A stretch of 38,701 nt of DNA. Source: an uncultured Brachyspira sp. GTDB lineage: Bacteria; Spirochaetota; Brachyspiria; Brachyspirales; Brachyspiraceae. The position numbers and the translations under genes were made by a program. The notes under the pieces are model-generated. The model saw only the letters and a list, made by a program, of their open reading frames with translations, had not been told where the DNA came from and made no database searches. Positions 1-16,550 of this stretch are shown here, piece by piece. Positions within the stretch are counted from its first letter, which is position 1. Each line of letters opens with the position of its first letter. The stretch covers positions 1 to 38,701 of the forward strand of contig CALXXQ010000060.1 in assembly GCA_944392715.1 (NCBI GenBank), written 5' to 3'.

Positions 1-5
1 ATAAT

Positions 6-311
6 ATGTCAAGTTCTATGGCTTTAGGTATGATAGAAACTAAAGGTTTGGTATCAGCAATAGAGGCAGCAGATGCTATGGTAAAAGCAGCTAATGTTAG
101 TTTAGTAGGTAAAACATTAGTAGGCGGTGGTTTGGTAACAGTAATGGTTAGAGGTGATGTAGGAGCAGTAAAAGCAGCAACAGATGCAGGCGCAGCAGCA
201 GCAGCTAAAGTAGGTGAACTAATAAGCGTGCATGTTATACCAAGACCTCATGGAGAAGTTGAAACTATACTTCCTAATAATAATGCAGCTGATAGTGGTA
301 ATAAAGAATAA
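6..311 (+). CDS. eutM: Microcompartment hexameric shell protein EutM (BMC-H)
   Basis: Shell protein of the ethanolamine microcompartment; hexamers tile the facets and their central pores pass small metabolites. One BMC domain fills almost all of the 101 residues. Visible family marks are [20 protein letters not shown] near the N-terminus, the pore region [17 protein letters not shown], and the C-terminal [13 protein letters not shown], all very close to the canonical EutM/PduA pattern. ATG at 6 is the first start in the window; ATG at 18 is an alternative and matches the usual EutM N-terminus better. The upstream ribosome binding site is mostly outside the window. The gene is first in a tightly packed + strand eut operon that clearly continues upstream. 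Confidence 0.93.
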
Positions 312-331
312 TATATTATAATAGGTTTATT

Positions 332-1090
332 ATGAAAGTTTTAACAGAACAAATGTTAAGAAGTGAAATACTCAATAGAGATGTATCTGAATATTTTATA
401 GAGGAAGGGGTTTTTGTAACTCCTTCCGCTAAAGAGTATTTAGCTTCTAGGAAAATAGAACTTAAAATAAAATCCTCTAAGGGTAATGGTTCAAGTTCTA
501 CATCTAATCCTAAATCACGCGGTATAAGAGAAATAGAAAATATGACATCTTATATCGATTACGAGACTAAAAAAAAGTTAGATAATAAGCCTGAAAATTA
601 TACTCATCTATATAATAATGTACTAGTTCAAAAAGGTCATCCAAGAATAGTGCTTAGAGGTAAATTAGATAGTCTTCTTTCTTTAATAATAGATATACAA
701 TATGAGTTTAAAGAAAGACATGAAGATAAATTATTGGAATACCTTAAAAAATATCAAAAACTTGTACATACAATATTATATTCTGAGGTTACTGAGAAAG
801 ATTTAGAATTTGATACTATATTTGGATTGAGTGAGGAAGATATTAGAAAAATATCACATCATCCTAAAGAGTACTTTGGTTGCGATCATATATTTGTCAA
901 TTATGAGATGCCTTTCACGGTTATAAAACTTAATTTAATAAGAACTGCTGTTAGAGAGGTTGAATTAGCTGCATTTAATGCTTTGCAAAATGAAAGAGAT
1001 GATCTCATAAAGTTGTTAAATCGTATGAGCAGTGTGATATATATTTTGATGCTTATGGCATATACAGGTAAGGATGTATTGAATGATTGA
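332..1090 (+). CDS. eutT: Ethanolamine-type corrinoid adenosyltransferase EutT
   Basis: Transfers the adenosyl group of ATP to cob(I)alamin, supplying the adenosylcobalamin needed by ethanolamine ammonia-lyase. The 252-residue length fits the family. The N-terminal module has the TPSA motif (residues 30-33). The catalytic half carries FGLSEEDIRKISHHP and the helix LNLIRTAVREVELAAFNAL, closely matching enteric EutT. The CC-x-x-C metal motif of the enteric enzyme is absent: the only cysteine is in FGCDH. This suggests the metal-independent form seen in Firmicute eut loci (known of the family; not tested here). It lies 20 bp after eutM, and its stop overlaps the pduL start. Confidence 0.92.
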   Translation: MKVLTEQMLRSEILNRDVSEYFIEEGVFVTPSAKEYLASRKIELKIKSSKGNGSSSTSNPKSRGIREIENMTSYIDYETKKKLDNKPENYTHLYNNVLVQKGHPRIVLRGKLDSLLSLIIDIQYEFKERHEDKLLEYLKKYQKLVHTILYSEVTEKDLEFDTIFGLSEEDIRKISHHPKEYFGCDHIFVNYEMPFTVIKLNLIRTAVREVELAAFNALQNERDDLIKLLNRMSSVIYILMLMAYTGKDVLND

Positions 1091-3513: not shown

Positions 3514-4884
3514 ATGAGTTTGAAAGAAAAAATATATAATGCTGGTATTGTTGGAGCTGGCGGAGCAGGTTTTCCATCACATATAAAATTACCAGAGAAA
3601 GTAGAATATTTAATAGCTAATGCAGCAGAATGTGAGCCGCTTTTAAAAACAGATCAATTTATTATGCTTAAATATGCTGAAAAAATAGTTAAAGCATTAG
3701 CTATTATAGGCAAAGAGATATCAGCTGAACATATTGTTATCGGAACTAAAAAGAAATATGTTAAACAGATAGAAGCTTTGCAAAAGGCTATCAAAGAAGA
3801 AAATGCTCCAATAGAAATCAAAACATTCAAAAGTTTTTATCCTTTGGGAGATGAGCAGACTTTAGTATATAATATTACTAAAAGAGCAATTAAAGCAGGC
3901 GGAATACCTTTGGAAGTTGGATGTGTTGTTTTTAATGTAGCAACTTTATGCAATATTTATGATAGTTTGAATGATATTCCTGTAACTTCAAAATATATAT
4001 CTATTTTAGGAGAGGTTGATAAACCTAGTATTATAAAGGTTCCTATAGGTACAAATTTGAGAGAAATTTTATCAAGAGTTGGAGTAACAGATAATAATAA
4101 ATATGTTATAGTTGGCGGACCTATGATGGGTAAATATCATCATATAAACAGCACTGAAAATCTTTTTGTTAAAAAAACTACAGGTGCATTAATAGTTATT
4201 GATGAGGATCATTATTTAGTTAAAAAGAAAAATATAAATTATTCTAAAATTGTATCGCTTGCAAAATGTTCTTGTATACAATGCAGTTTCTGTTCTGAAT
4301 TATGTCCTAGAAATTTATTAGGTCATAAAATTAATCCTCATTTGGTAATGCGTTCAGTTGCTTTTGCAGATTTGGAAAATATTGAAAATAATAATGAGCA
4401 TGTTTTAGATAAATTAAAAGAAGCATATTTTTGCTGCGAATGCGGTATATGTGAGCTTTATTCATGTCCTATGGGAATAAATCCTTCTAATATGAATATA
4501 TATGTTAAATATCTTTTGAGAAGTGCTAATATAAAACCTGATAAAAATCCAAAAGATACAGGAATAAATCCTTCTATAGATTATAGAAGAATTTCTACAG
4601 ACAGATTGGTAACTTTATTATGTTTAGATAAATATTATCATACTGATGTAGATATAAATAACCCTATAGAACTTGATTTTTCTAGGGTTTCTATTGGATT
4701 AAGTCAGCATATAGGAATGCCTGCATCTCCTATAGTAAATGTTGGCGATTCTGTTATTAAAGGGCAACTTATAGCTACAGTACCTATGGACAAAGTAGGA
4801 GCTAATATTCATTCAAGTATAGATGGTATTGTAGAAACTGTTGATACTGAAAAAATAGTTATAAATGGGGAGAATGTTAAATGA
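3514..4884 (+). CDS. PduS/RnfC-like Fe-S flavoprotein, probable corrinoid reductase
   Basis: RnfC-like NADH-dependent redox protein related to PduS, which reduces cob(III)alamin for the adenosyltransferase. In the 456 residues the N-terminal dinucleotide/FMN domain begins with GIVGAGGAGFPSHIK. Two [4Fe-4S] motifs are visible: CSCIQCSFCSELCP (about 251-264) and CCECGICELYSCP (about 307-319). The C-terminal domain has SLBB-like and barrel-sandwich features (VNVGDSVIKGQLIATVP). It is followed, with an ATGA overlap, by a PduT-like shell protein that also keeps its Fe-S cysteine. This supports electron transfer across the shell to regenerate B12 for EutT. That role is inferred; NAD+ recycling is an alternative. 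Confidence 0.85.
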   Translation: MSLKEKIYNAGIVGAGGAGFPSHIKLPEKVEYLIANAAECEPLLKTDQFIMLKYAEKIVKALAIIGKEISAEHIVIGTKKKYVKQIEALQKAIKEENAPIEIKTFKSFYPLGDEQTLVYNITKRAIKAGGIPLEVGCVVFNVATLCNIYDSLNDIPVTSKYISILGEVDKPSIIKVPIGTNLREILSRVGVTDNNKYVIVGGPMMGKYHHINSTENLFVKKTTGALIVIDEDHYLVKKKNINYSKIVSLAKCSCIQCSFCSELCPRNLLGHKINPHLVMRSVAFADLENIENNNEHVLDKLKEAYFCCECGICELYSCPMGINPSNMNIYVKYLLRSANIKPDKNPKDTGINPSIDYRRISTDRLVTLLCLDKYYHTDVDINNPIELDFSRVSIGLSQHIGMPASPIVNVGDSVIKGQLIATVPMDKVGANIHSSIDGIVETVDTEKIVINGENVK

Positions 4885-7223: not shown

Positions 7224-8516
7224 ATGAAAATAAAATTTTATGCATTAGTTTTATCTTTAATTGCCATCTTTTTTGCAAGCTGTAATAATAATTCAGCTTC
7301 AACTACTACAAAAACTGATAATACAGTATTATCAGAAAATAAATGGTCTACAAATACAAGAGCTAGACTTCAAAAATTAATTGATGATAATGGTATTAAA
7401 AGTGCAAATTATGATAGTAATAAAAAACCTTATGTTGTTTTTGACTGGGATCAAACTTGTATATTTAATGATACACAAGAATCTATGTTTAGATATATGA
7501 TAAATAATTTAGAGTTTAAAGCTACACCTGAAGAGTTTTCTGCTTTAATTAGAAAGAATATACCTAAAGATAATTTTGCAGCTGATTATAATAATAAAGA
7601 TGGGCAGCCTGTAAATATAGATAAAATAGGTGCGGATTTAGATTCTGATTATAAATTTTTATATGATAATTATATAGGCACTAAAAAAATGTCATTAGAA
7701 GAGATTAGAAAAACAGATCAGTTTATAGATTTCCAAGCTAAATATGCATATCTATATGAAGCTATAGGAGGAACTTTTAGTGCTGATATAAGTTATCCTT
7801 GGGTTTTATATTCATTTACAGGAATGACACCAGAAGATGTTGCAGCTTTAGCAGAGAGAGCTAATGATTATGCTTTAGAGAGAGAAATTTCTACTTATAC
7901 TCTTACTAGTCCTGATACTATGCCTGGACAAGCAGGTATTATATCTTTAGATGGTTATAAAGATGGTCTTAGAGTTGAACCTGAAATGGCTGATTTAATC
8001 AATGTTTTAATGGCTAATGGAATAGATGTTTATATATGTTCTGCTTCACATCAAAATGTTGTTGAAGTATTTGCTTCTTTACCTAAATATACATACAATG
8101 TTCCTAAAGAAAATGTTATAGCTATGAGAACTAAAAAGACAGCAGATGGAAAATTAACTTATGAATATGAAGATAATTGGCCTCAAACTCAGCAGCAGGG
8201 AAAAACAGAAGCTATAAAACTTACTTTAGTATCTAAATATGGCTATGGTCCTATACTTGTTGGAGGAGATAGCCAGGGTGATTATTATATGGCTACAGAT
8301 TTCCCTGAAACTCAATTGACTCTTATTATAAATCGTTTGAGAACAGATGATTTTGCTAAATTAAGTCTTATGGCAGTAGAACAAAAAGGTCAGGAAAATT
8401 CTAGATATGTTATGCAGGGCAGAGATGAGAATAAGGGAGAGTTTAGACCAGATGAAGCTACAATAAAAATGGGAACTCAAGAAGCTAAATTATTAAATGA
8501 TAATTTAGCAAAATAA
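7224..8516 (+). CDS. Lipoprotein HAD-superfamily phosphatase in the eut operon
   Basis: Predicted exported lipoprotein (signal KFYALVLSLIAIFFASC, lipobox FASC, then an Asn/Ser/Thr linker) with a haloacid-dehalogenase phosphatase domain. Motif I is VVFDWDQTCIFNDT (about 72-85), motif II lies around DVYICSASHQNVVE, and motif IV is VGGDSQGDYYMATD (about 344-357). Overall it resembles the PF12710-type acid/phosphorylcholine phosphatases (430 residues). It sits 31 bp after eutH and 19 bp before eutQ on the same strand. A role in freeing ethanolamine from phosphoethanolamine outside the inner membrane is my inference; the substrate cannot be read from sequence. Confidence 0.82.
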   Translation: MKIKFYALVLSLIAIFFASCNNNSASTTTKTDNTVLSENKWSTNTRARLQKLIDDNGIKSANYDSNKKPYVVFDWDQTCIFNDTQESMFRYMINNLEFKATPEEFSALIRKNIPKDNFAADYNNKDGQPVNIDKIGADLDSDYKFLYDNYIGTKKMSLEEIRKTDQFIDFQAKYAYLYEAIGGTFSADISYPWVLYSFTGMTPEDVAALAERANDYALEREISTYTLTSPDTMPGQAGIISLDGYKDGLRVEPEMADLINVLMANGIDVYICSASHQNVVEVFASLPKYTYNVPKENVIAMRTKKTADGKLTYEYEDNWPQTQQQGKTEAIKLTLVSKYGYGPILVGGDSQGDYYMATDFPETQLTLIINRLRTDDFAKLSLMAVEQKGQENSRYVMQGRDENKGEFRPDEATIKMGTQEAKLLNDNLAK

Positions 8517-9058: not shown

Positions 9059-10189
9059 TTATATTAGACTTCTATATATATTTTTTACATCTTCAATGCT
9101 AGGTTTAGCAGGATTTGTTAATAAGCATACATCTTTTAATGCATTAGAAGCCATTTCTTCTATAGCATTTTCAAATTCTGTTTTGTCTACTCCATAATCA
9201 GTTATCTTATGGTTTATTCCTATATTATTATTTAATTCTAAAATAAGAGATTTTAATACATCACATGCTTTTAGAGTGTCATGAACATTTTTTATATCTA
9301 AAAGGGTAATAATTTTAGCATACTTTTTTGCTGCTTCTGCAGAATTTTTAGCATTATATTCTATAACATGAGGCATTAATATAGCATTAGCTCTTCCATG
9401 CGGCTGTCTAAATCTTCCTCCAAGTGCATGAGCCATAGCATGTATTAATCCTAAACCCGCATTATTAAAAGCTATTCCTGCTATACAAGAAACTTCATGC
9501 ATAGCTATTCTAGCATTAACATCACTGCCATTATGAACAGCCTTAGATATATTATTAAATACACCAATTATAGCATATTCGCTATATGGCATAGTGAAAG
9601 GACTTGAATTAATTGAAACATAAGATTCAAATGCATGCGCCATAACATCCATACCTGTTTCAGCAGTTATTCTAGGAGGTACTGTTAATGTAAATTGCGA
9701 GTCAAGCAAAGCTATATCTGGAAGCATTTCATTTGATACTATAGGTACTTTTCTATGTGTTTCCTTATCTGTTATAATAGAATATGAAGTAACTTCAGAA
9801 CCAGTTCCGCTTGTTGTAGGTATTACTATAAATAATGGCTTATTTGTTACATTTGATATTTGTTTATTTACTTCCAAAGCAAAATATATAACAGCTTTTG
9901 CCGTATCTATTACAGATCCGCCTCCTATTGCTATTATAGTATCTGAATTAAAGGTTAAAATTTTATTCAAACATTTTATTACTATTTCAAAACTAGGATC
10001 AGGTTCTATGTCAGAAAAAATTTCATACTCAATATTATTTTTCTTCATCAATTCTATAGTAGAATCACATGAACCTATTTTTAACATATTATTATCTGTA
10101 AAAATAGATACTCTTTTAGATTTTGATAAATCCAAATTTAATAAAGAGTTATTACCAGATATTATTTTAGTGTTTAATACAAATTCCAT
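9059..10189 (-). CDS. eutG: Iron-containing alcohol dehydrogenase EutG
   Basis: NAD-dependent group III alcohol dehydrogenase that would reduce acetaldehyde to ethanol and recycle NAD+ for the aldehyde dehydrogenase. In the 376 residues the nucleotide-binding GGGSVIDTAKAV (about 89-100) and the iron-ligand regions DVMAHAFESYV and HAMAHALGGRFRQPHGRAN are intact. The EutG name rests on its position directly downstream of eutA in a eut locus; by sequence alone it could be another short-chain alcohol or 1,3-propanediol dehydrogenase. No obvious N-terminal encapsulation extension is seen. It is co-transcribed with eutA (18 bp apart). Confidence 0.87.
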   Translation of the reverse strand: MEFVLNTKIISGNNSLLNLDLSKSKRVSIFTDNNMLKIGSCDSTIELMKKNNIEYEIFSDIEPDPSFEIVIKCLNKILTFNSDTIIAIGGGSVIDTAKAVIYFALEVNKQISNVTNKPLFIVIPTTSGTGSEVTSYSIITDKETHRKVPIVSNEMLPDIALLDSQFTLTVPPRITAETGMDVMAHAFESYVSINSSPFTMPYSEYAIIGVFNNISKAVHNGSDVNARIAMHEVSCIAGIAFNNAGLGLIHAMAHALGGRFRQPHGRANAILMPHVIEYNAKNSAEAAKKYAKIITLLDIKNVHDTLKACDVLKSLILELNNNIGINHKITDYGVDKTEFENAIEEMASNALKDVCLLTNPAKPSIEDVKNIYRSLI

Positions 10190-10207
10190 AATAATTAATC
10201 CTTAATC

Positions 10208-11644
10208 CTATAAATTATTTTTTTCATTAAATATTAAAGTTTTTATCATAACAGGTACTACCATACCGCCTTCTCCAACAGGAAGACCAATATCTATATA
10301 ATCTCCATTTTCAACAACTACATTATCAACACAAATAATAGGATAATTTTCATCCAATTTTGATTTCAATGTTATTCCTAATGATTTAGCCATATCTATT
10401 TCTATTATTATTATTAAAGGTTTTTTCTTTTTTATAATAGAGTCAAATGATACTATGATATTATCAGCTAATTTATTTAATTGGTCAAAATTAAGCCTTG
10501 TATTTCCTATAAATGATAATGCTATAACTTCTTCTTCATACCAATTTATTTTATTTTTTATGGATGATAAATTTCCTGAAAGTAAATCTTCTTCTTCTTT
10601 TTTATTTAATTTAATTATCGGTATATTCTTTAAAGGTAATAATTCTTTCATATAATGTATAGTACTTCCGCTTAAATCTACACTATATGCTCCAGCACCT
10701 ACTACTGTAGCCTGCTGAGTTTCTAATACTTTTAAATATGATGATTTAGGTATAATTTTAGAATTATATATAGCATAACCTAATATAGGTCCTATATCTC
10801 CATATTTGAATGGATCTTGAGGAATAGTGCTTGGATAATTATATATAAAATCTGCAACTCCCCCTGAAAAAGTTAAATAATCAAATTTCTCTATTTCCCA
10901 ATCATGATTTGTTATAAAATATTTCGAAAGAGAAGTTTTAGGAGATAGGAATAATATTTCACAAATAGCTTTCTCCATTATTTCACAGAATTTTAATATT
11001 TCATCTGTAACTGCTTTTTCACCTATTTTTATATTTAATTTATAATCTTCTATTATTTTTTTAGATTTATCAGTCATTTTATATATAAGGCCGTCTTTAA
11101 CTTCTATCATTCTTCCGCCTATATCCATACAAGTAGTATTTAAAGCAGAACCATTGCTGAAGAATGCCAAATTAGTAGTACCGCCTCCTATATCTAAATT
11201 GATAATATTGGCATGATTATCTTTAGATAAAGCAGAAGAGCCTGAACCTTTTGCTGCTATTATACTTTCCAAATCACTTCCTGCAATAGCAACAACAAAA
11301 TCGCCCGCAAATGATGATAATTCTTGTAATATTTTATCTGCATTTTTCTTTCTAGCAGTTTCTCCCGTAATTATTACAGCTCCTGTTTGTACAGATTTTT
11401 TATCTATATTTGCATCTTTATACACATTTTCTATTATCTTCATAAGGGATGCTACATCTATATCACTTGATGATAATAAAGGTGTAAAAAATACTTCACT
11501 TCTATATATTATATTTTTATCTATAACTTTTATTATTGGAGCTCTAGATATACCAGATAAATTTTGAATAGTTAATTTACTGAATATTATATTTGTTGTA
11601 GTTGTACCAACATCTATACCGACACTTATTATATTATTATCCAT
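10208..11644 (-). CDS. eutA: Ethanolamine ammonia-lyase reactivase EutA
   Basis: ATP-dependent factor that swaps damaged cobalamin out of ethanolamine ammonia-lyase. The 478 residues match the family. Actin-like ATPase motifs are GIDVGTTTTNIIFSKL at the N-terminus, TGAVIITGETARKKNAD, and NLDIGGGTTNLAFFSNG; the segment YLTFSGGVADFIY is also typical of EutA. In many loci eutA precedes eutBC on the same strand. Here it is in a convergent operon with eutG, with its own promoter (11665-11692), downstream of the TonB receptor gene. Confidence 0.93.
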   Translation of the reverse strand: MDNNIISVGIDVGTTTTNIIFSKLTIQNLSGISRAPIIKVIDKNIIYRSEVFFTPLLSSSDIDVASLMKIIENVYKDANIDKKSVQTGAVIITGETARKKNADKILQELSSFAGDFVVAIAGSDLESIIAAKGSGSSALSKDNHANIINLDIGGGTTNLAFFSNGSALNTTCMDIGGRMIEVKDGLIYKMTDKSKKIIEDYKLNIKIGEKAVTDEILKFCEIMEKAICEILFLSPKTSLSKYFITNHDWEIEKFDYLTFSGGVADFIYNYPSTIPQDPFKYGDIGPILGYAIYNSKIIPKSSYLKVLETQQATVVGAGAYSVDLSGSTIHYMKELLPLKNIPIIKLNKKEEEDLLSGNLSSIKNKINWYEEEVIALSFIGNTRLNFDQLNKLADNIIVSFDSIIKKKKPLIIIIEIDMAKSLGITLKSKLDENYPIICVDNVVVENGDYIDIGLPVGEGGMVVPVMIKTLIFNEKNNL

Positions 11645-11664
11645 GTATAATACCTCTACTTTAT

Positions 11665-11692
11665 ATTATATATATATAAGTAGATAAGTCAA
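11665..11692 (-). promoter_or_regulatory. Promoter of eutA-eutG
   Basis: On the - strand TTGACT (11692-11687) and TATAAT (11670-11665) are separated by 16 bp and lie just upstream of the eutA ribosome binding site (AGAGGT). This is a near-consensus sigma-70 type promoter. Confidence 0.75.
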
Positions 11693-11732
11693 TATTTTAA
11701 AGAAAAAATATTATATAGTTTAACTAAATAAA

Positions 11733-13676
11733 CTAAAAATTATATCCAACCTCAACTTCCCAAGTAAAAGGCTTGGCAATAGAGTAGGTTGACAGCATCG
11801 GAGTTTTATTAAAAATATTTTTAAAATGGCTTGATATTATTAGATGCTCAAACCATATTGAATATAATGATATATTAAAGTCATGAAATGGGTCAGAGTA
11901 AAAAATAGGTCTGTTTGCTGTCATAGGTCTTGGATATGAGTATGTATAGTAAATATTTAATGATAATGAACTTAATACTTTATTATTAGGTATAAAATCA
12001 TAACCTAATAATGCAGTTACAACATGTTCTGGAAGACCTATTTTAGGGAATTTTTCTTTACCCATATATGCAAGCTGATAAGAGTAACCTACCTTTGTTT
12101 TTATTTTATGGTATTTAGCAAATGGTATATCATAGCCTATACTTGATGTAAATATATGAGAAGTTGCTGTATCAACATTTTCAGGTATTGCATATGCCCA
12201 AATTATTTTATTTGTATATATTGTATATGCATAAGAAGCTTCTATTTTTAAATTTGTTATAGGCTCTATTGTTAATTTTGTAAGCAGTTGATTATAGCTT
12301 TCTGGAAGTAGATTAGGATTACTAAATTGTCCATAGTATAAATCATTGAAAGTAGGTGAAGTATAATCACTTGAATAAGCAAAAAATAAATTGTATCCTT
12401 TATAGAAGTTTAAAGAAATTCCTGCACTATATGCTAAATAATTATTATTTTGAGTATATTTAAAATGCTCATTTTGATATTCATATTTAATACTTGGAAG
12501 CAATGTAAATATAGGAGTATTATTATCCCAATATCCGAAAGATAATTGCATATCATATTGTAATGAAATAGAATGTCTTTGAGGACTATATTGAAAATTA
12601 TTTTCTAAACCATTTTCATCTTCCTCTAAAATATCATATCTATATTCGGGCATTAATTTATTATACATTGTTATTATGCCAGGAAGAAATTCATCCATTC
12701 TATCAAGAGATACATTCAAAGCTAATCCATGAGATCTATAATCAGATATAAATTTACCCTCATAAACATATGGTCTATCTACAAATGAATCAAATAAATA
12801 TGATAAACTAACAGTATAATCTAAAATATCAGAAAAACCATTATACGATATAGAAGATGCTAAAGTAGTAAAATTAAACCAAGAATCAGTATAACTTATA
12901 GGAGGGATATGATATTGAGCTGCTGAGCTAGAATATGATATATTAGCAAATGCATTTATAAAATTTTTATTATCAAATGTATATTTATAGTTGGCTGATG
13001 AATTAACTATAAATTGCCTATTGTCTTTTAAATTTCCTTGAACTCTTTTTCCTGCCAAATTAGTGAAATCATAATAGTAATTAGCATCGCTATAATATGA
13101 ATCAGCAGTAAAAGTAAATACCTGATTTTCATCTATATTTCTTGAAAATAGTATAGAAGGTCTCATAGTATTATAAGCACCATATGCAAAAGACACCAAA
13201 AGTATATCTTGTAAAGGCGTTTTTGTTGTAATATAAATACTGTTTCCTATTATTTCAATAGATTCTATTAAATTAGCTGGTATTCTTCTTAAATCAACTC
13301 CAGCATCAGCATTTCCTTTAGCAGTATTCATAAGAACACCATTAATATATATCTTTATATTATCTCCATTAGCACCAGCTGGGTCAACAACCTCATTACC
13401 CATATAATTGCCTTTATTAATAAATCCAGGCTGATTAGCTAATACTTCCTGAGCATTATTATAACCCATTCTTTCTATATCTTCTGAAGTTATAGTACTG
13501 CTATTTACTTTTATAGGTTCCTTTGGAGGAGAATCTTTTTTTACTTCATTTGTCTGAGCAGCATTAGTGATTTGTACTTCAGAAGTAATCCAAATACCTC
13601 CTTTAAGTTCTTTAATAAGATAAGTTTGTGAATATAATATATTTATAGAAATAAGGAATATAATAAAATATCTCAT
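11733..13676 (-). CDS. TonB-dependent outer-membrane receptor, candidate cobalamin transporter
   Basis: Outer-membrane receptor of 647 residues (BtuB is about 600) with signal peptide FIIFLISINILYSQ. The plug domain (about 55-150) contains STITSEDIERMGYNNAQEVL, DNIKIYINGVLMNT and the typical RRIPANLIESIEIIGN. The rest alternates aromatic/polar beta strands and ends in WEVEVGYNF, a barrel C-terminus with a final aromatic residue. No convincing TonB box could be placed. It lies downstream of a riboswitch-controlled lipoprotein gene and upstream of eutA, which makes B12 the likeliest ligand (inference). The 90-bp gap before this gene contains a 9-bp inverted repeat. Confidence 0.85.
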   Translation of the reverse strand: MRYFIIFLISINILYSQTYLIKELKGGIWITSEVQITNAAQTNEVKKDSPPKEPIKVNSSTITSEDIERMGYNNAQEVLANQPGFINKGNYMGNEVVDPAGANGDNIKIYINGVLMNTAKGNADAGVDLRRIPANLIESIEIIGNSIYITTKTPLQDILLVSFAYGAYNTMRPSILFSRNIDENQVFTFTADSYYSDANYYYDFTNLAGKRVQGNLKDNRQFIVNSSANYKYTFDNKNFINAFANISYSSSAAQYHIPPISYTDSWFNFTTLASSISYNGFSDILDYTVSLSYLFDSFVDRPYVYEGKFISDYRSHGLALNVSLDRMDEFLPGIITMYNKLMPEYRYDILEEDENGLENNFQYSPQRHSISLQYDMQLSFGYWDNNTPIFTLLPSIKYEYQNEHFKYTQNNNYLAYSAGISLNFYKGYNLFFAYSSDYTSPTFNDLYYGQFSNPNLLPESYNQLLTKLTIEPITNLKIEASYAYTIYTNKIIWAYAIPENVDTATSHIFTSSIGYDIPFAKYHKIKTKVGYSYQLAYMGKEKFPKIGLPEHVVTALLGYDFIPNNKVLSSLSLNIYYTYSYPRPMTANRPIFYSDPFHDFNISLYSIWFEHLIISSHFKNIFNKTPMLSTYSIAKPFTWEVEVGYNF

Positions 13677-13700
13677 AATTTTAACCCGATTTATAAATTT

Positions 13701-13739
13701 AATGTCCTGAATTTTATCAAATATAAAAAACAGGACATT
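13701..13739 (-). promoter_or_regulatory. Perfect 9-bp inverted repeat between lipoprotein and TonB receptor genes
   Basis: AATGTCCTG (13701-13709) and CAGGACATT (13731-13739) form a perfect 9-bp stem with a 21-base AT-rich spacer, just upstream of the receptor gene. No good T-tract follows on the - strand, so a simple terminator is doubtful. An intercistronic stabilising hairpin or an operator is possible. Confidence 0.5.
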
Positions 13740-13765
13740 AATATTTTCATTTTTTATAAATTAAA

Positions 13766-14379
13766 TTATTTTTTGTAATCAAAATTCTGTATTATGCCAG
13801 TTGCATATGAACCCCATCTACTCATTATTCCTTTCCAATCTTCTTCAGTAGGGGCATTCTCTGTAGCACCTGTACCAAAAGCAGAAGCAAGCATAAAGTT
13901 TCCATCAGTATCTATATGAAATAACATCCAGCGACTGTCTTGTCCAGCTATTCTAGGGTCTTCATATAAGGCACCTATCCAGTTTGTTCCTTTCCATTCT
14001 ATTCTATATTAGTAGCATATATAAAATTACCTAGAATAGTGCTATCATTTTCAAGATATGTTGCATTTTCATCTGTTGTTCTTGTTGTTTGTGTTACTCC
14101 TGCAGGTAAAAGAGTTTGATTAGAAAAAGTATTTAACCAATTAGTTCTAAAATATTCCTGTTTATTTGGATCGCTCCAAGATAATTTTAGTATTTCAGGA
14201 TCTGCTATGAGTTCATATTCTCCACGTTTTCCTGTACCTTGATTATTATTATTGTTATTATTATTGTTATTATTGTTATTTGGATTGTTAGGATTATTTT
14301 TAGCACATGATACCGATAAAAATAATGATAAAAATAGGATAGTGAATAATGTTAATAAAACTTTAATTTGTTTTTGCAT
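13766..14379 (-). pseudogene. B12-riboswitch-controlled lipoprotein gene broken by a 5-bp tandem duplication
   Basis: The first 126 codons encode a lipoprotein (leader MQKQIKVLLTLFTILFLSLF, lipobox SVSC) with a long Asn/Pro linker, stopping at TAG (14001-13999). Exactly there the + strand carries ATTCT twice in tandem (13996-14005). Removing one copy continues the frame from ATNIE into WKGTNWIGALYEDPRIAG and on to DFYKK-like residues ending at a stop at 13766, about 200 residues in all. The downstream part is Trp/Gly-rich and has no other stop. It is preceded by a cobalamin riboswitch and followed by the TonB receptor gene. It may be a real pseudogene, a reversible slippage switch or a sequencing error. 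No known domain was recognised. Confidence 0.82.
14242..14292 (-). repeat. Triplet repeat encoding the poly-Asn linker
   Basis: A run of ATT/GTT triplets on the + strand encodes an Asn/Pro-rich linker just after the lipobox. In-frame triplet slippage here would change linker length without breaking the gene. Confidence 0.7.
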
Positions 14380-14386
14380 TGAAATG

Positions 14387-14572
14387 CTCCTTTATCTATT
14401 ATTTATAATTTTATAATTAAAAGCTATTTAATAAAGGAGTGCATGCTTTTATGTAGTGCACTCGACTATTTTTAATGGTATCCGACTTCGTTAGTATTTT
14501 ACTTGTATAAAAACTAAACTTTACGGTTGCGTGCCAGCGAAGGATTTTCACCCTCATTCCCATATATAAGTA
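14387..14572 (-). ncRNA. Cobalamin riboswitch (copy 1) with SD-sequestering platform
   Basis: Read on the - strand, the leader has GGGAATGAGGGTGAAAATCC, then CGCTGGCACGCAACCGTAA and the B12 box AAGTCGGATACC, in the order and spacing of cobalamin riboswitches. The expression platform follows. A stem GAGTGCA/TGCACTC (14463-14457 with 14443-14437) alternates with CTCCTTTAT (14439-14431) pairing perfectly with the SD region ATAAAGGAG (14395-14387) of the lipoprotein gene. This points to translational control. The copy at 16321-16492 is nearly identical. Boundaries are approximate. Confidence 0.88.
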
Positions 14573-14599
14573 GTATTTTTATATATAATGATGAATTAT

Positions 14600-14628
14600 A
14601 TTATATATATTAAATATTTTTATTTCAA
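14600..14628 (-). promoter_or_regulatory. Promoter upstream of cobalamin riboswitch copy 1
   Basis: TTGAAA (14628-14623) and TATAAT (14605-14600) on the - strand with a 17-bp spacer, about 30 bp before the aptamer starts. Confidence 0.65.
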
Positions 14629-14664
14629 TATTTTTTACCAAATAAATTTTATTAAAATTGAATA

Positions 14665-15147
14665 TTATTTTACTTCAGTACAATCAGAATAAAAATCAAA
14701 ATATCCATTCTCAACTGTAAATATTGTTTTTGCATTATCTAATGTATCAGTTTCATTAATACCATTTTTTTTATAAGCAGCAGAAATTTTAATAGATGAT
14801 GAAGTTAAATTTTTAAAAGAAATGGCATAGTATTTATTAATTGCATCTTTATTATAATCTGGAACAATAGTATATCTGCCGTATATAATTCCTGATTTAT
14901 TATCCTCATTCCAAAATATTTCTTCTATATTAATAGAATATCTTATATTTTCTATATCATTACTTATATGATATCTATCAACTTTATTTGTTTGAATATT
15001 AAATCCTGAATTAATATAATTAATATATTCCCATTTTTTATTAAGCATTTTTTCTTTATTTATATTATTCATATTATTATTACATGATATAATTGGAATG
15101 AATATAAATAATAAAGCTGTAAAAAATAATTTAGTTTTTATCTTCAT
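14665..15147 (-). CDS. Small lipoprotein, paralogue of the 15809-16312 lipoprotein
   Basis: A 160-residue lipoprotein (signal KTKLFFTALLFIFIPIISC). The C-terminal half shares a clear pattern with the product of 15809-16312: IIYGRYTIVPDYN against IIYGQYTVNNNNQ, KYYAISFKNLT against KYYAISFQGLT, and FTVENGYFDFYSDCTEVK against FTVENGYFSFYSDCTVSK. The two are therefore paralogues of one unnamed family. It has no riboswitch of its own and starts after a terminator-like hairpin at 15191-15217, with a weak ribosome binding site, so expression may depend on read-through. Function unknown; a ligand-binding surface lipoprotein linked to B12 uptake is a guess from context. Confidence 0.78.
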   Translation of the reverse strand: MKIKTKLFFTALLFIFIPIISCNNNMNNINKEKMLNKKWEYINYINSGFNIQTNKVDRYHISNDIENIRYSINIEEIFWNEDNKSGIIYGRYTIVPDYNKDAINKYYAISFKNLTSSSIKISAAYKKNGINETDTLDNAKTIFTVENGYFDFYSDCTEVK

Positions 15148-15190
15148 AGTATGCAGTTCTTTTATTATTTTTTATATAAAATTAAACTAA

Positions 15191-15217
15191 AAAGGAACGG
15201 CTATTAACCGCTCCTTT
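15191..15217 (-). terminator. Intrinsic terminator after the 15237-15785 lipoprotein gene
   Basis: On the - strand AAAGGAGCGG and CCGTTCCTTT form a 10-bp stem with one mismatch and a short AT loop, followed by TTT AG. It would end or attenuate the transcript that begins at the riboswitch near 16490. Confidence 0.65.
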
Positions 15218-15236
15218 ATAATTTGCTATTTTTTTA

Positions 15237-15785
15237 TTAATATTTTTTTATATATCCGAAAACAAAATCATATTTAACCCAGATAGTATTTTCATCTGGT
15301 ATAACAGTTTCATTACCGCCGCCGCCGTACCAAGCAATCTCAGCACCGCTTTCATCTGTTATAATGAGTCTGTAACGTTCCTGCATTCCTACACCTGTTT
15401 GATTATCCCAATATATGGCAGCAAGATATTTTTTATTATTATACTCGTATACAGCACATTCTATGAATTTTGTTCTAATATTTACCGTATCAGTGATATC
15501 ATAATAATTAGCTTGAGCATCAAATTTTCCGCTTTCTTTACAGTCATATTTAGTTTTATAAACTAGTTGATCGCCTACTAAATTAATCCATAAATTTTTT
15601 AACTGAACTTTATCAGTTACATCAACTTCTGAAGTTTTACTTCCGTATTGTATAGTATGAACTCCTGAAGTTACAGCCTTAACTGATGGAGTGTTGTTAT
15701 TATTATTAGGATTTGTAGACGGATTATTACATGATACTATTAATGAAAATATTATAATTAATAAATATGATTTTTTTATTTTCAT
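15237..15785 (-). CDS. Small lipoprotein of unknown function
   Basis: A 182-residue predicted lipoprotein (signal SYLLIIIFSLIVSC, followed by the Asn/Pro/Thr linker NNPSTNPNNNNNTPS). The mature part looks beta-rich with alternating polar and aromatic residues (VQLKNLWINLVGDQLVYKTK, YLAAIYWDNQTGVGMQERY, ENTIWVKYDFVFGYIKKY). It contains two cysteines in the domain. It does not share the DFYSDCT ending of its two neighbours, so it is a separate family. It lies 23 bp downstream of the riboswitch-controlled lipoprotein gene and is probably in the same transcript. No function recognised. Confidence 0.75.
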   Translation of the reverse strand: MKIKKSYLLIIIFSLIVSCNNPSTNPNNNNNTPSVKAVTSGVHTIQYGSKTSEVDVTDKVQLKNLWINLVGDQLVYKTKYDCKESGKFDAQANYYDITDTVNIRTKFIECAVYEYNNKKYLAAIYWDNQTGVGMQERYRLIITDESGAEIAWYGGGGNETVIPDENTIWVKYDFVFGYIKKY

Positions 15786-15808
15786 ATAAAACCTCTAAAA
15801 ACTATAAT

Positions 15809-16312
15809 TTATTTTGAAACTGTACAATCAGAATAAAAACTAAAATATCCATTCTCAACTGTAAATTTTGTTTTTGCTTCTTCCAATGTTTCAGCAGAAG
15901 AATCATATGATCCGTTTACAAATTTACCAGCACCAGAAATAGATACAGAATTATCAGTTAAACCCTGGAAAGATATAGCATAATATTTTCCATTATCATT
16001 TTGATTATTATTATTTACAGTATATTGTCCGTATATAATTCCAGATGTATTATCAGGATTCCAAGTGATTTCCAATATAGAAGTAGAATAGCTAACTTTA
16101 TAAGTCAAAGTATTATTATCAAGATAAAGATTTTTAAATTCATTTTCTGTAATAGAATATACAGATTTATAACTATCAATCCAATTCTTTTTTAATTTAG
16201 AGAAATTGGCATTGTCTGAACCAATTGGATTATTTGGATTGTTTGCAGCACAAGATACTGCTAAAATTGATACAGTTAAAAGTGTTAATAAAATTTTGAT
16301 TTGTTTTTGCAT
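15809..16312 (-). CDS. B12-riboswitch-controlled small lipoprotein
   Basis: A 167-residue lipoprotein (leader MQKQIKILLTLLTVSILAVS, lipobox AVSC). Start taken at 16312 because ATAAAGGAG lies 7-8 bases upstream and the leader is nearly the same as that of the broken lipoprotein at 14379; the frame stays open to 16369 but that stretch is riboswitch sequence. The C-terminal domain matches the paralogue at 14665-15147 (VENGYFSFYSDCT). Directly preceded by a cobalamin riboswitch, so the product should be made when B12 is scarce. A corrinoid-capturing surface protein, functionally like BtuG/BtuH of Bacteroides, is a testable inference; no sequence similarity to those is claimed. Confidence 0.8.
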   Translation of the reverse strand: MQKQIKILLTLLTVSILAVSCAANNPNNPIGSDNANFSKLKKNWIDSYKSVYSITENEFKNLYLDNNTLTYKVSYSTSILEITWNPDNTSGIIYGQYTVNNNNQNDNGKYYAISFQGLTDNSVSISGAGKFVNGSYDSSAETLEEAKTKFTVENGYFSFYSDCTVSK

Positions 16313-16320
16313 AAATAATG

Positions 16321-16492
16321 CTCCTTTATTTTTATTTTTTATTAAAAGCTGTTTAATAAAGGAGTGCATTTTTTAGATAGTGCACTCGCCTATTTTTAAT
16401 GGTATCCGACTTCGTTAGTATTTTATTTGTATAAAAAACTAAACTTTACGGTTGCGTGCCAGCGAAGGATTTTCACCTTCATTCCCATATGT
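16321..16492 (-). ncRNA. Cobalamin riboswitch (copy 2) with SD-sequestering platform
   Basis: Nearly the same leader as copy 1: GGGAATGAAGGTGAAAATCC, CGCTGGCACGCAACCGTAA, then GAAGTCGGATACC on the - strand. The alternative structures are again visible. A stem GAGTGCA/TGCACTC (16387-16381 with 16368-16362) competes with a 10-bp pairing of CTCCTTTATT (16364-16355) to the SD region AATAAAGGAG (16330-16321). The loop lengths differ between copies while the pairing partners are kept. Boundaries are approximate. Confidence 0.88.
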
Positions 16493-16522
16493 AAAAAAGA
16501 GGTATAGGGTATTTATTGTAAT

Positions 16523-16550
16523 AGTATACATATAAATATTTTTATATCAA
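16523..16550 (-). promoter_or_regulatory. Promoter upstream of cobalamin riboswitch copy 2
   Basis: TTGATA (16550-16545) and TATACT (16528-16523) on the - strand, 16-bp spacer, about 30 bp before the aptamer. The same layout is seen at copy 1. Confidence 0.65.

Follow-up and report, generated by a model that had tools for sequence, protein, structure and literature searches.

Vitamin B12 is a contested resource in the gut, and lipoproteins that capture it at the cell surface are known mainly from the Bacteroidetes. In Bacteroides loci, the lipoproteins BtuG, BtuH and BtuJ capture B12 for the receptor BtuB (PMC6143338, PMC8941943, PMC12751083, PMC13398666). Here, we analyze a 38,701-nucleotide stretch of DNA (the window; contig C60) from the 2.85-Mb genome of an uncultured Brachyspira species, in which two cobalamin riboswitches accompany genes for small lipoproteins (LP1 to LP4) and a BtuB-like TonB-dependent receptor. 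The locus resembles the cobamide-uptake loci of B. thetaiotaomicron (BtuB with BtuG, BtuH, BtuJ and BtuK) in its cobalamin riboswitches, its TonB receptor, the presence of several small lipoproteins per locus and the linkage to BtuFCD (PMC6143338, PMC8941943, PMC12751083), but its lipoproteins are either lipocalin-like, as predicted from models, or without a fold match. It also recalls enterobacterial BtuB with its leader riboswitch, since a B12-type leader lies upstream of a BtuB-like receptor, directly so in B. catarrhinii. However, lipoprotein genes lie between riboswitch and receptor, the receptor scores far under the equivalog cut-off, and the aptamer is class-II-like and lacks the large peripheral domain. 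The literature searched, which mostly excluded subscription papers, contained no account of how Brachyspira takes up B12 or of the riboswitches involved. Drawing on the structure and conservation of the RNAs, the content and order of the genes, the link of LP2/LP4 to spirochaetal B12 loci and the absence of CbiC, all computed here, we consider it very probable that the module is a riboswitch-controlled system for the acquisition of B12 (corrinoids), with putative corrinoid-binding components, in an organism apparently unable to build the corrin ring.

The strongest result of the analysis concerns the LP2/LP4 family, whose role in B12 uptake is well supported by genomic context. A profile search of a sample of 247 Spirochaetota (E <= 1e-8), for which all match loci outside Brachyspira were fetched, revealed relatives in 12 genomes beyond this genus. 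In each of them, a BtuB-like receptor gene adjoins the lipoprotein gene, with both on the same strand in 11. In 11 of the 12 loci, the unit also includes a cobalamin-clan riboswitch, which lies directly upstream of the lipoprotein gene in ten and upstream of the receptor gene in G029; nine of these riboswitches reach gathering, whereas those of G128 and G209 lie slightly below. Three of the 12 loci additionally contain BtuC or BtuFCD genes, and TonB-B12 (TIGR01779) was the best family for all six distant receptors scanned (31-124 bits). Because these genomes were found via the lipoprotein alone, they provide evidence for the B12-uptake role of the family that is independent of the Brachyspira sites.

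Two class-II-like cobalamin riboswitches occupy the sites at which the sequence-only reading had placed them. A permissive covariance search of the region from 9 to 20 kb yielded two matches in total, both to the cobalamin clan and on the minus strand. The aptamer of riboswitch 2 (16393-16497) matched AdoCbl-II (RF01689) with 30.7 bits (gathering 36.5; E 6e-4), and that of riboswitch 1 (14456-14599) matched Cobalamin (RF00174) with 25.2 bits (gathering 31.5; E 0.0037). Thus, the expected covariance-model matches were obtained with permissive settings, but no family reached its Rfam gathering cut-off anywhere in the window. The two riboswitches make up two of the three matches in a whole-genome RF00174 search (riboswitch 2 with E 8.5e-5, the other with E 2.3e-4). 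When an alignment of 22 Brachyspira homologues (A1), whose riboswitch core is invariant, was folded with RNAalifold, it recovered the cobalamin core and a P13 hairpin downstream. In this alignment, pairing holds for 98.7% of the cells, and both sides have changed in 8 of 21 pairs; either value was reached by 0 of 500 shuffles, which keep relatedness, and both counts also exceeded every slid register, a control that removes relatedness but is biased towards a structure obtained from these very sequences. The genus model built from A1 (R1) identified 44 sites across 25 of the 26 Brachyspira genomes compared. It scored 140 bits for riboswitch 2 and 141 bits for riboswitch 1, although the sites used to build it match by construction, so that further support comes from the other sites and from the gene contexts. 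These contexts include lipoprotein/receptor units, BtuFCD operons, metE in G001 (L102 1023-1240) and a group without a downstream gene. The Brachyspira riboswitches share their core helices, the conserved GCUGGCACGCAACCGUAA box and P13 with RF01689 and RF00174, but differ in their below-gathering scores and a Brachyspira-specific platform (GUCGAGUGCACU...UGCACUCCUUUAUU...AAUAAAGGAG).

For 23 of the 31 lipoprotein leaders, P13 continues at its 3' arm into CUCCUUUAUU or a variant thereof, whose complementarity to the Shine-Dalgarno (SD) region AAUAAAGGAG exceeds that of at least 99% of shuffles; among the remaining eight, the search window was misplaced in six and two were weaker. Riboswitch 2 can form a 10-bp duplex (16364-16355 with 16330-16321), and the anti-SD of riboswitch 1 (14439-14430) pairs with the SD at 14396-14387, with energies of -12.5 and -12.9 kcal/mol, respectively, that none of 200 shuffles equalled. 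Given this helix, and since a scan of the coding strand listed no terminator 3' of P13, control of the lipoprotein leaders is probably translational. By analogy to known cobalamin riboswitches and the metE case, we infer repression by B12: at low cellular cobalamin, both leaders would keep their SD sequences open, whereas the conserved anti-SD helix would shut them once cobalamin is bound, constituting a translational OFF switch.

As the sequence-only reading had proposed, the riboswitches precede small lipoproteins, with a signal peptide and lipobox cysteine discernible by eye in each of LP1 to LP4. Translation of LP4 probably starts at the ATG at 16312, directly 3' of the SD AATAAAGGAG, rather than at 16369. 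Based on sequence comparison, LP2/LP4 and LP1/LP3 represent two unrecognised lipoprotein families. LP1 and LP3 share homology across the mature protein (hhalign probability 99.4), and the phylum search detected full-length relatives of them in Brachyspira only, always inside riboswitch/receptor modules. A single group comprising all lipoproteins, as obtained by single-linkage clustering, was rejected, because profile comparison unites LP1 with LP3 but links LP3 to LP2/LP4 only at the signal peptide; the merging probably reflects a fusion protein as well as common signal peptides. In B. pilosicoli, a 309-residue protein fuses LP4-like and LP3-like domains (L033 6422-7351). In the window, a tandem duplication of 5 bases near 14000 disrupts the frame of LP1; the aligned intact copy of L032 does not have it. 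Intact copies exist in other Brachyspira species, and the gene is frameshifted or truncated in several (window 13999-14379, L035 9482-9880, L036 9351-9871), which suggests decay or a variable need.

For members of the LP2/LP4 family, sequence comparison with Pfam, NCBIfam and PDB gave no meaningful match, and 0 of 19 match the Pfam lipocalin clan; PDB sequence searches with the receptor and the lipoproteins gave nothing credible. Structure prediction yielded neighbours for LP4 but no fold match for LP3. The AF2 model of LP4 (pLDDT 86) has Bacteroides lipocalin-like proteins as its best Foldseek neighbours (4gzv, probability 1.00, E 0.006, TM 0.46-0.57), and many LP2/LP4 members contain a G-x-W-like motif. 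A lipocalin-like fold is likely for this family, with Foldseek E-values that are all >0.001. The neighbours 4gzv, 4iab and 4i95 were all listed with probability 1.00, but they share only 7-10% identity with LP4 at TM values <=0.57. We know of no role of these three proteins in B12 metabolism. The LP3 model (pLDDT 82) had no fold match; its family displays 47 invariant columns, including 11 Tyr and 3 Trp. Neither family showed homology to BtuG, BtuH or DUF4465 (BtuJ) at the sensitivity used, with no Pfam match and none among the 50 Foldseek matches listed. The initial impression of unfamiliar lipoproteins held.

It is tempting to speculate, with slightly less than even confidence, that LP2/LP4 are phylum-wide spirochaetal lipocalin-like corrinoid binders, presumably exposed at the surface, and LP1/LP3 an unrelated Brachyspira-specific corrinoid-binding fold, such that scavenging evolved independently of BtuG/BtuH/BtuJ. 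A less probable scenario is that the lipoproteins do not bind corrinoids themselves but act as accessory or structural partners of the receptor in assembly, as a gating lid or in vesicle recruitment, as has been reported for BtuL of B. thetaiotaomicron. Their constant coupling to the receptor and the many divergent paralogues per locus would fit such a role, and some lipoproteins of Bacteroides loci do not bind B12 (BtuL, BtuK2; PMC12751083). However, lipocalin-like barrels usually bind small ligands, and the Tyr/Trp-rich invariant columns of the LP3 family recall the tyrosine halo of BtuJ, a likeness that is only suggestive.

The receptor contains TonB Plug and barrel domains (PF07715, PF00593) and is 70-84% identical to receptors in named Brachyspira records. 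Its sole NCBIfam relatives are the B12 receptor models TIGR01779 and BtuB, both far below cut-off, consistent with a BtuB-like TonB-dependent receptor. B12 riboswitches can control cobalt transporters in B12-making organisms, and the remoteness of the receptor from BtuB might likewise hint at the import of a non-corrinoid substrate (cobalt, heme or siderophore) by receptor and lipoproteins under B12 control. We regard this possibility as very unlikely, given the linkage to BtuFCD and the fact that TonB-B12 is the best-scoring family for receptors from distant relatives. Moreover, CbiC was detected in 0 of the 26 Brachyspira genomes, in a search whose control was positive in 7, and because CbiC is absent, cobalt for corrin synthesis would not be needed.

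An orthologous receptor is encoded in 24 of the 26 genomes. In the fetched loci, it lies downstream of an R1-type riboswitch, mostly with one to five lipoproteins. In G005, it is found on a separate contig downstream of two lipoprotein genes, and G003, whose contig is that of B. catarrhinii L042, has the riboswitch immediately upstream of the receptor gene. A candidate lipoprotein in B. catarrhinii (LPcat) was rejected, because its sequence reads as RuvA, placing the riboswitch directly on the receptor gene. BtuF-BtuC-BtuD-like genes come after the receptor in G001 and G003. Only one genome that is at least 90% complete, G020 (99%), lacks both riboswitch and receptor, and it also has no FecCD permease above cut-off.

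The sequence-only reading had framed the module as part of ethanolamine metabolism. An origin as a specific component of the ethanolamine locus that provides EutBC with adenosylcobalamin would fit the arrangement in the window, where the module converges with a eut operon and eutA and eutG lie downstream of the receptor, as also in G014. Pfam bore out the assignments of the receptor, EutA and the iron-containing alcohol dehydrogenase (Fe-ADH). However, EutB occurs in only 2 of the 26 genomes (that of the window and G014), compared to 24-25 of 26 for the riboswitch/receptor module, and eutA follows the receptor only in these two. Loci without eutB are flanked by pdu diol-dehydratase genes, by BtuFCD or by nothing of a related kind; in several other Brachyspira, the neighbours comprise the alcohol dehydrogenase together with a metabolosome locus that encodes the large subunit of a diol dehydratase. 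In addition, eutA has its own promoter-like site. This distribution already contradicts the ethanolamine proposal as a general statement and led us to reject an ethanolamine-specific role; as an account of how the module evolved, it is highly improbable. The eut neighbourhood thus appears to be a local association of a genus-wide module. The B12-scavenging part of the earlier reading is well supported by context, with riboswitch-controlled uptake genes here and LP2/LP4 beside BtuB-like receptors across Spirochaetota, whereas its ethanolamine framing is secondary. Adenosylcobalamin riboswitches are known from eut loci, such as Rli55 in Listeria and EutX in Enterococcus. A cobalamin riboswitch is tied to ethanolamine genes here as well (upstream of eutB, on contig C142), but the window riboswitches control uptake genes. 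An ANTAR search for an EutV-type regulator in this genome gave no match, with the control search silent too.

Several observations weigh against assigning B12 acquisition to the module. The receptor reaches only 38.1 bits with the BtuB equivalog TIGR01779, whose cut-off is 599.7, and both window riboswitches fall short of the Rfam gathering scores. The LP1 gene carries a frameshift in the window, some relatives have only a truncated copy, and B. catarrhinii possesses the receptor but no lipoproteins, which are thus not strictly needed. Among the more distant loci, the receptor gene is convergent to the lipoprotein gene in G132, and no riboswitch was detected in G160 (L145).

The window probably continues leftwards into contig C142 of the same genome, whose last 107 bases are identical to its first 107 (L117 10070-10176; window 1-311 region), although repeated BMC genes could mislead in this respect. 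C142 carries ExbB, BtuF-, BtuC- and BtuD-like genes, an above-cut-off Cobalamin riboswitch, eutB, eutC, eutL, a BMC gene and eutE, whereas the window beyond the overlap encodes the adenosyltransferase, shell proteins, EutH and EutQ. Thus, B12 uptake, adenosylation and use would be encoded together. G009 shows the same gene order on a single contig, with pdu genes replacing eutBC. In the B12-acquisition system that we propose, the riboswitch leaders would drive the small lipoproteins and the BtuB-like receptor. Lipocalin-like LP2/LP4 and the Brachyspira-specific LP1/LP3 would most likely bind corrinoid or help to pass it to the receptor, ExbB and BtuFCD may then move it inward, in an inferred order of transport, and the adenosyltransferase could convert it into adenosylcobalamin for EutBC. 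The riboswitch upstream of eutB (L001 / L117 about 4710-4848) differs from those in the window; its type also occurs upstream of pduB in other species, roughly 220-360 nt from the start codon.

On the minus strand, the gene order is riboswitch 2, LP4, LP3, a terminator-like hairpin, LP2, a promoter-like site, riboswitch 1, LP1 and the receptor, followed by a promoter-like site, eutA, Fe-ADH and a terminator-like hairpin usable from either side (Table 1). The total count of promoter-like consensus matches across the region is at chance level.

Table 1. Features of the B12-uptake locus and its neighbours, in window coordinates.
Feature	Position	Strand	Basis
Promoter-like site upstream of riboswitch 2	16523..16550	-	TTGATA-16-TATACT, 10/12; consensus match only
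Cobalamin riboswitch 2 (aptamer and P13 hairpin)	16360..16497	-	RF01689, RF00174, genus model R1, covariation
Anti-SD CUCCUUUAUU	16355..16364	-	Pairs with SD 16330-16321
LP4, lipoprotein, predicted lipocalin-like beta-barrel	15809..16312	-	Family alignment, AF2 model, Foldseek; start via SD spacing
LP3, lipoprotein, Brachyspira-only family (LP1/LP3)	15237..15785	-	Family alignment, AF2 model, phylum search
Terminator-like hairpin between LP3 and LP2	15191..15217	-	12-pair stem and T-rich tail
LP2, lipoprotein, LP4 paralogue	14665..15147	-	46% identity to LP4 in family alignment; phmmer 4e-28
Promoter-like site upstream of riboswitch 1	14600..14628	-	TTGAAA-17-TATAAT, 11/12
Cobalamin riboswitch 1 (aptamer and P13 hairpin)	14435..14599	-	RF00174, genus model R1, anti-SD pairing
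LP1, lipoprotein gene with broken frame	13766..14379	-	Alignment with intact L032 copy; LP3 homology by hhalign
TonB-dependent receptor, BtuB-like	11733..13676	-	Pfam Plug and barrel; NCBIfam TIGR01779 and BtuB
eutA, ethanolamine ammonia-lyase reactivase (neighbour)	10208..11644	-	PF06277 1.9e-166; own promoter-like site 11692-11665
Iron-containing alcohol dehydrogenase, EutG/PduQ type (neighbour)	9059..10189	-	PF00465, PF25137
Corrinoid adenosyltransferase, convergent eut operon (context)	332..1090	+	PF01923 5e-14

Two further observations concern the neighbourhood and the riboswitches of relatives. Between eutH and eutQ, the window contains a HAD-family phosphatase-like gene (7224-8516) that is unusual in a eut operon and common to G014. 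In addition, an R1-type riboswitch with a promoter-like site but no gene is present in 11 Brachyspira genomes (L083, L088-L090, L092, L094, L098, L099, L101, L103, L104) and in G010 (L142). Its layout comprises the aptamer, P13, about 60-110 nt, a 24-nt box (CATAAATAAACCAAATATCTAAAA) and, in most cases, a terminator-like hairpin. The box is identical in 11 of 12 cases, with one mismatch in G006, and is found once per genome in 12 of the 26 genomes, in two different neighbourhoods, while absent from the genome of the window; it is retained where the aptamer has decayed (G010, G006). This unit looks like a B12-riboswitch-led small RNA of about half of the Brachyspira species. In G009 and G006, a 12-base complement to the box spans the SD-to-start codon region of the adenosyltransferase gene (L118 3850, L119 425), but a target search did not find it kept in G008 or G015, which carry the small RNA.

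Collectively, if our interpretation is correct, a spirochaete system of unrelated lipoproteins would imply that the capture strategy arose more than once, and protein families so far without annotation would gain a function. It would also explain how Brachyspira lacking CbiC feed their B12-dependent ethanolamine or diol metabolism.

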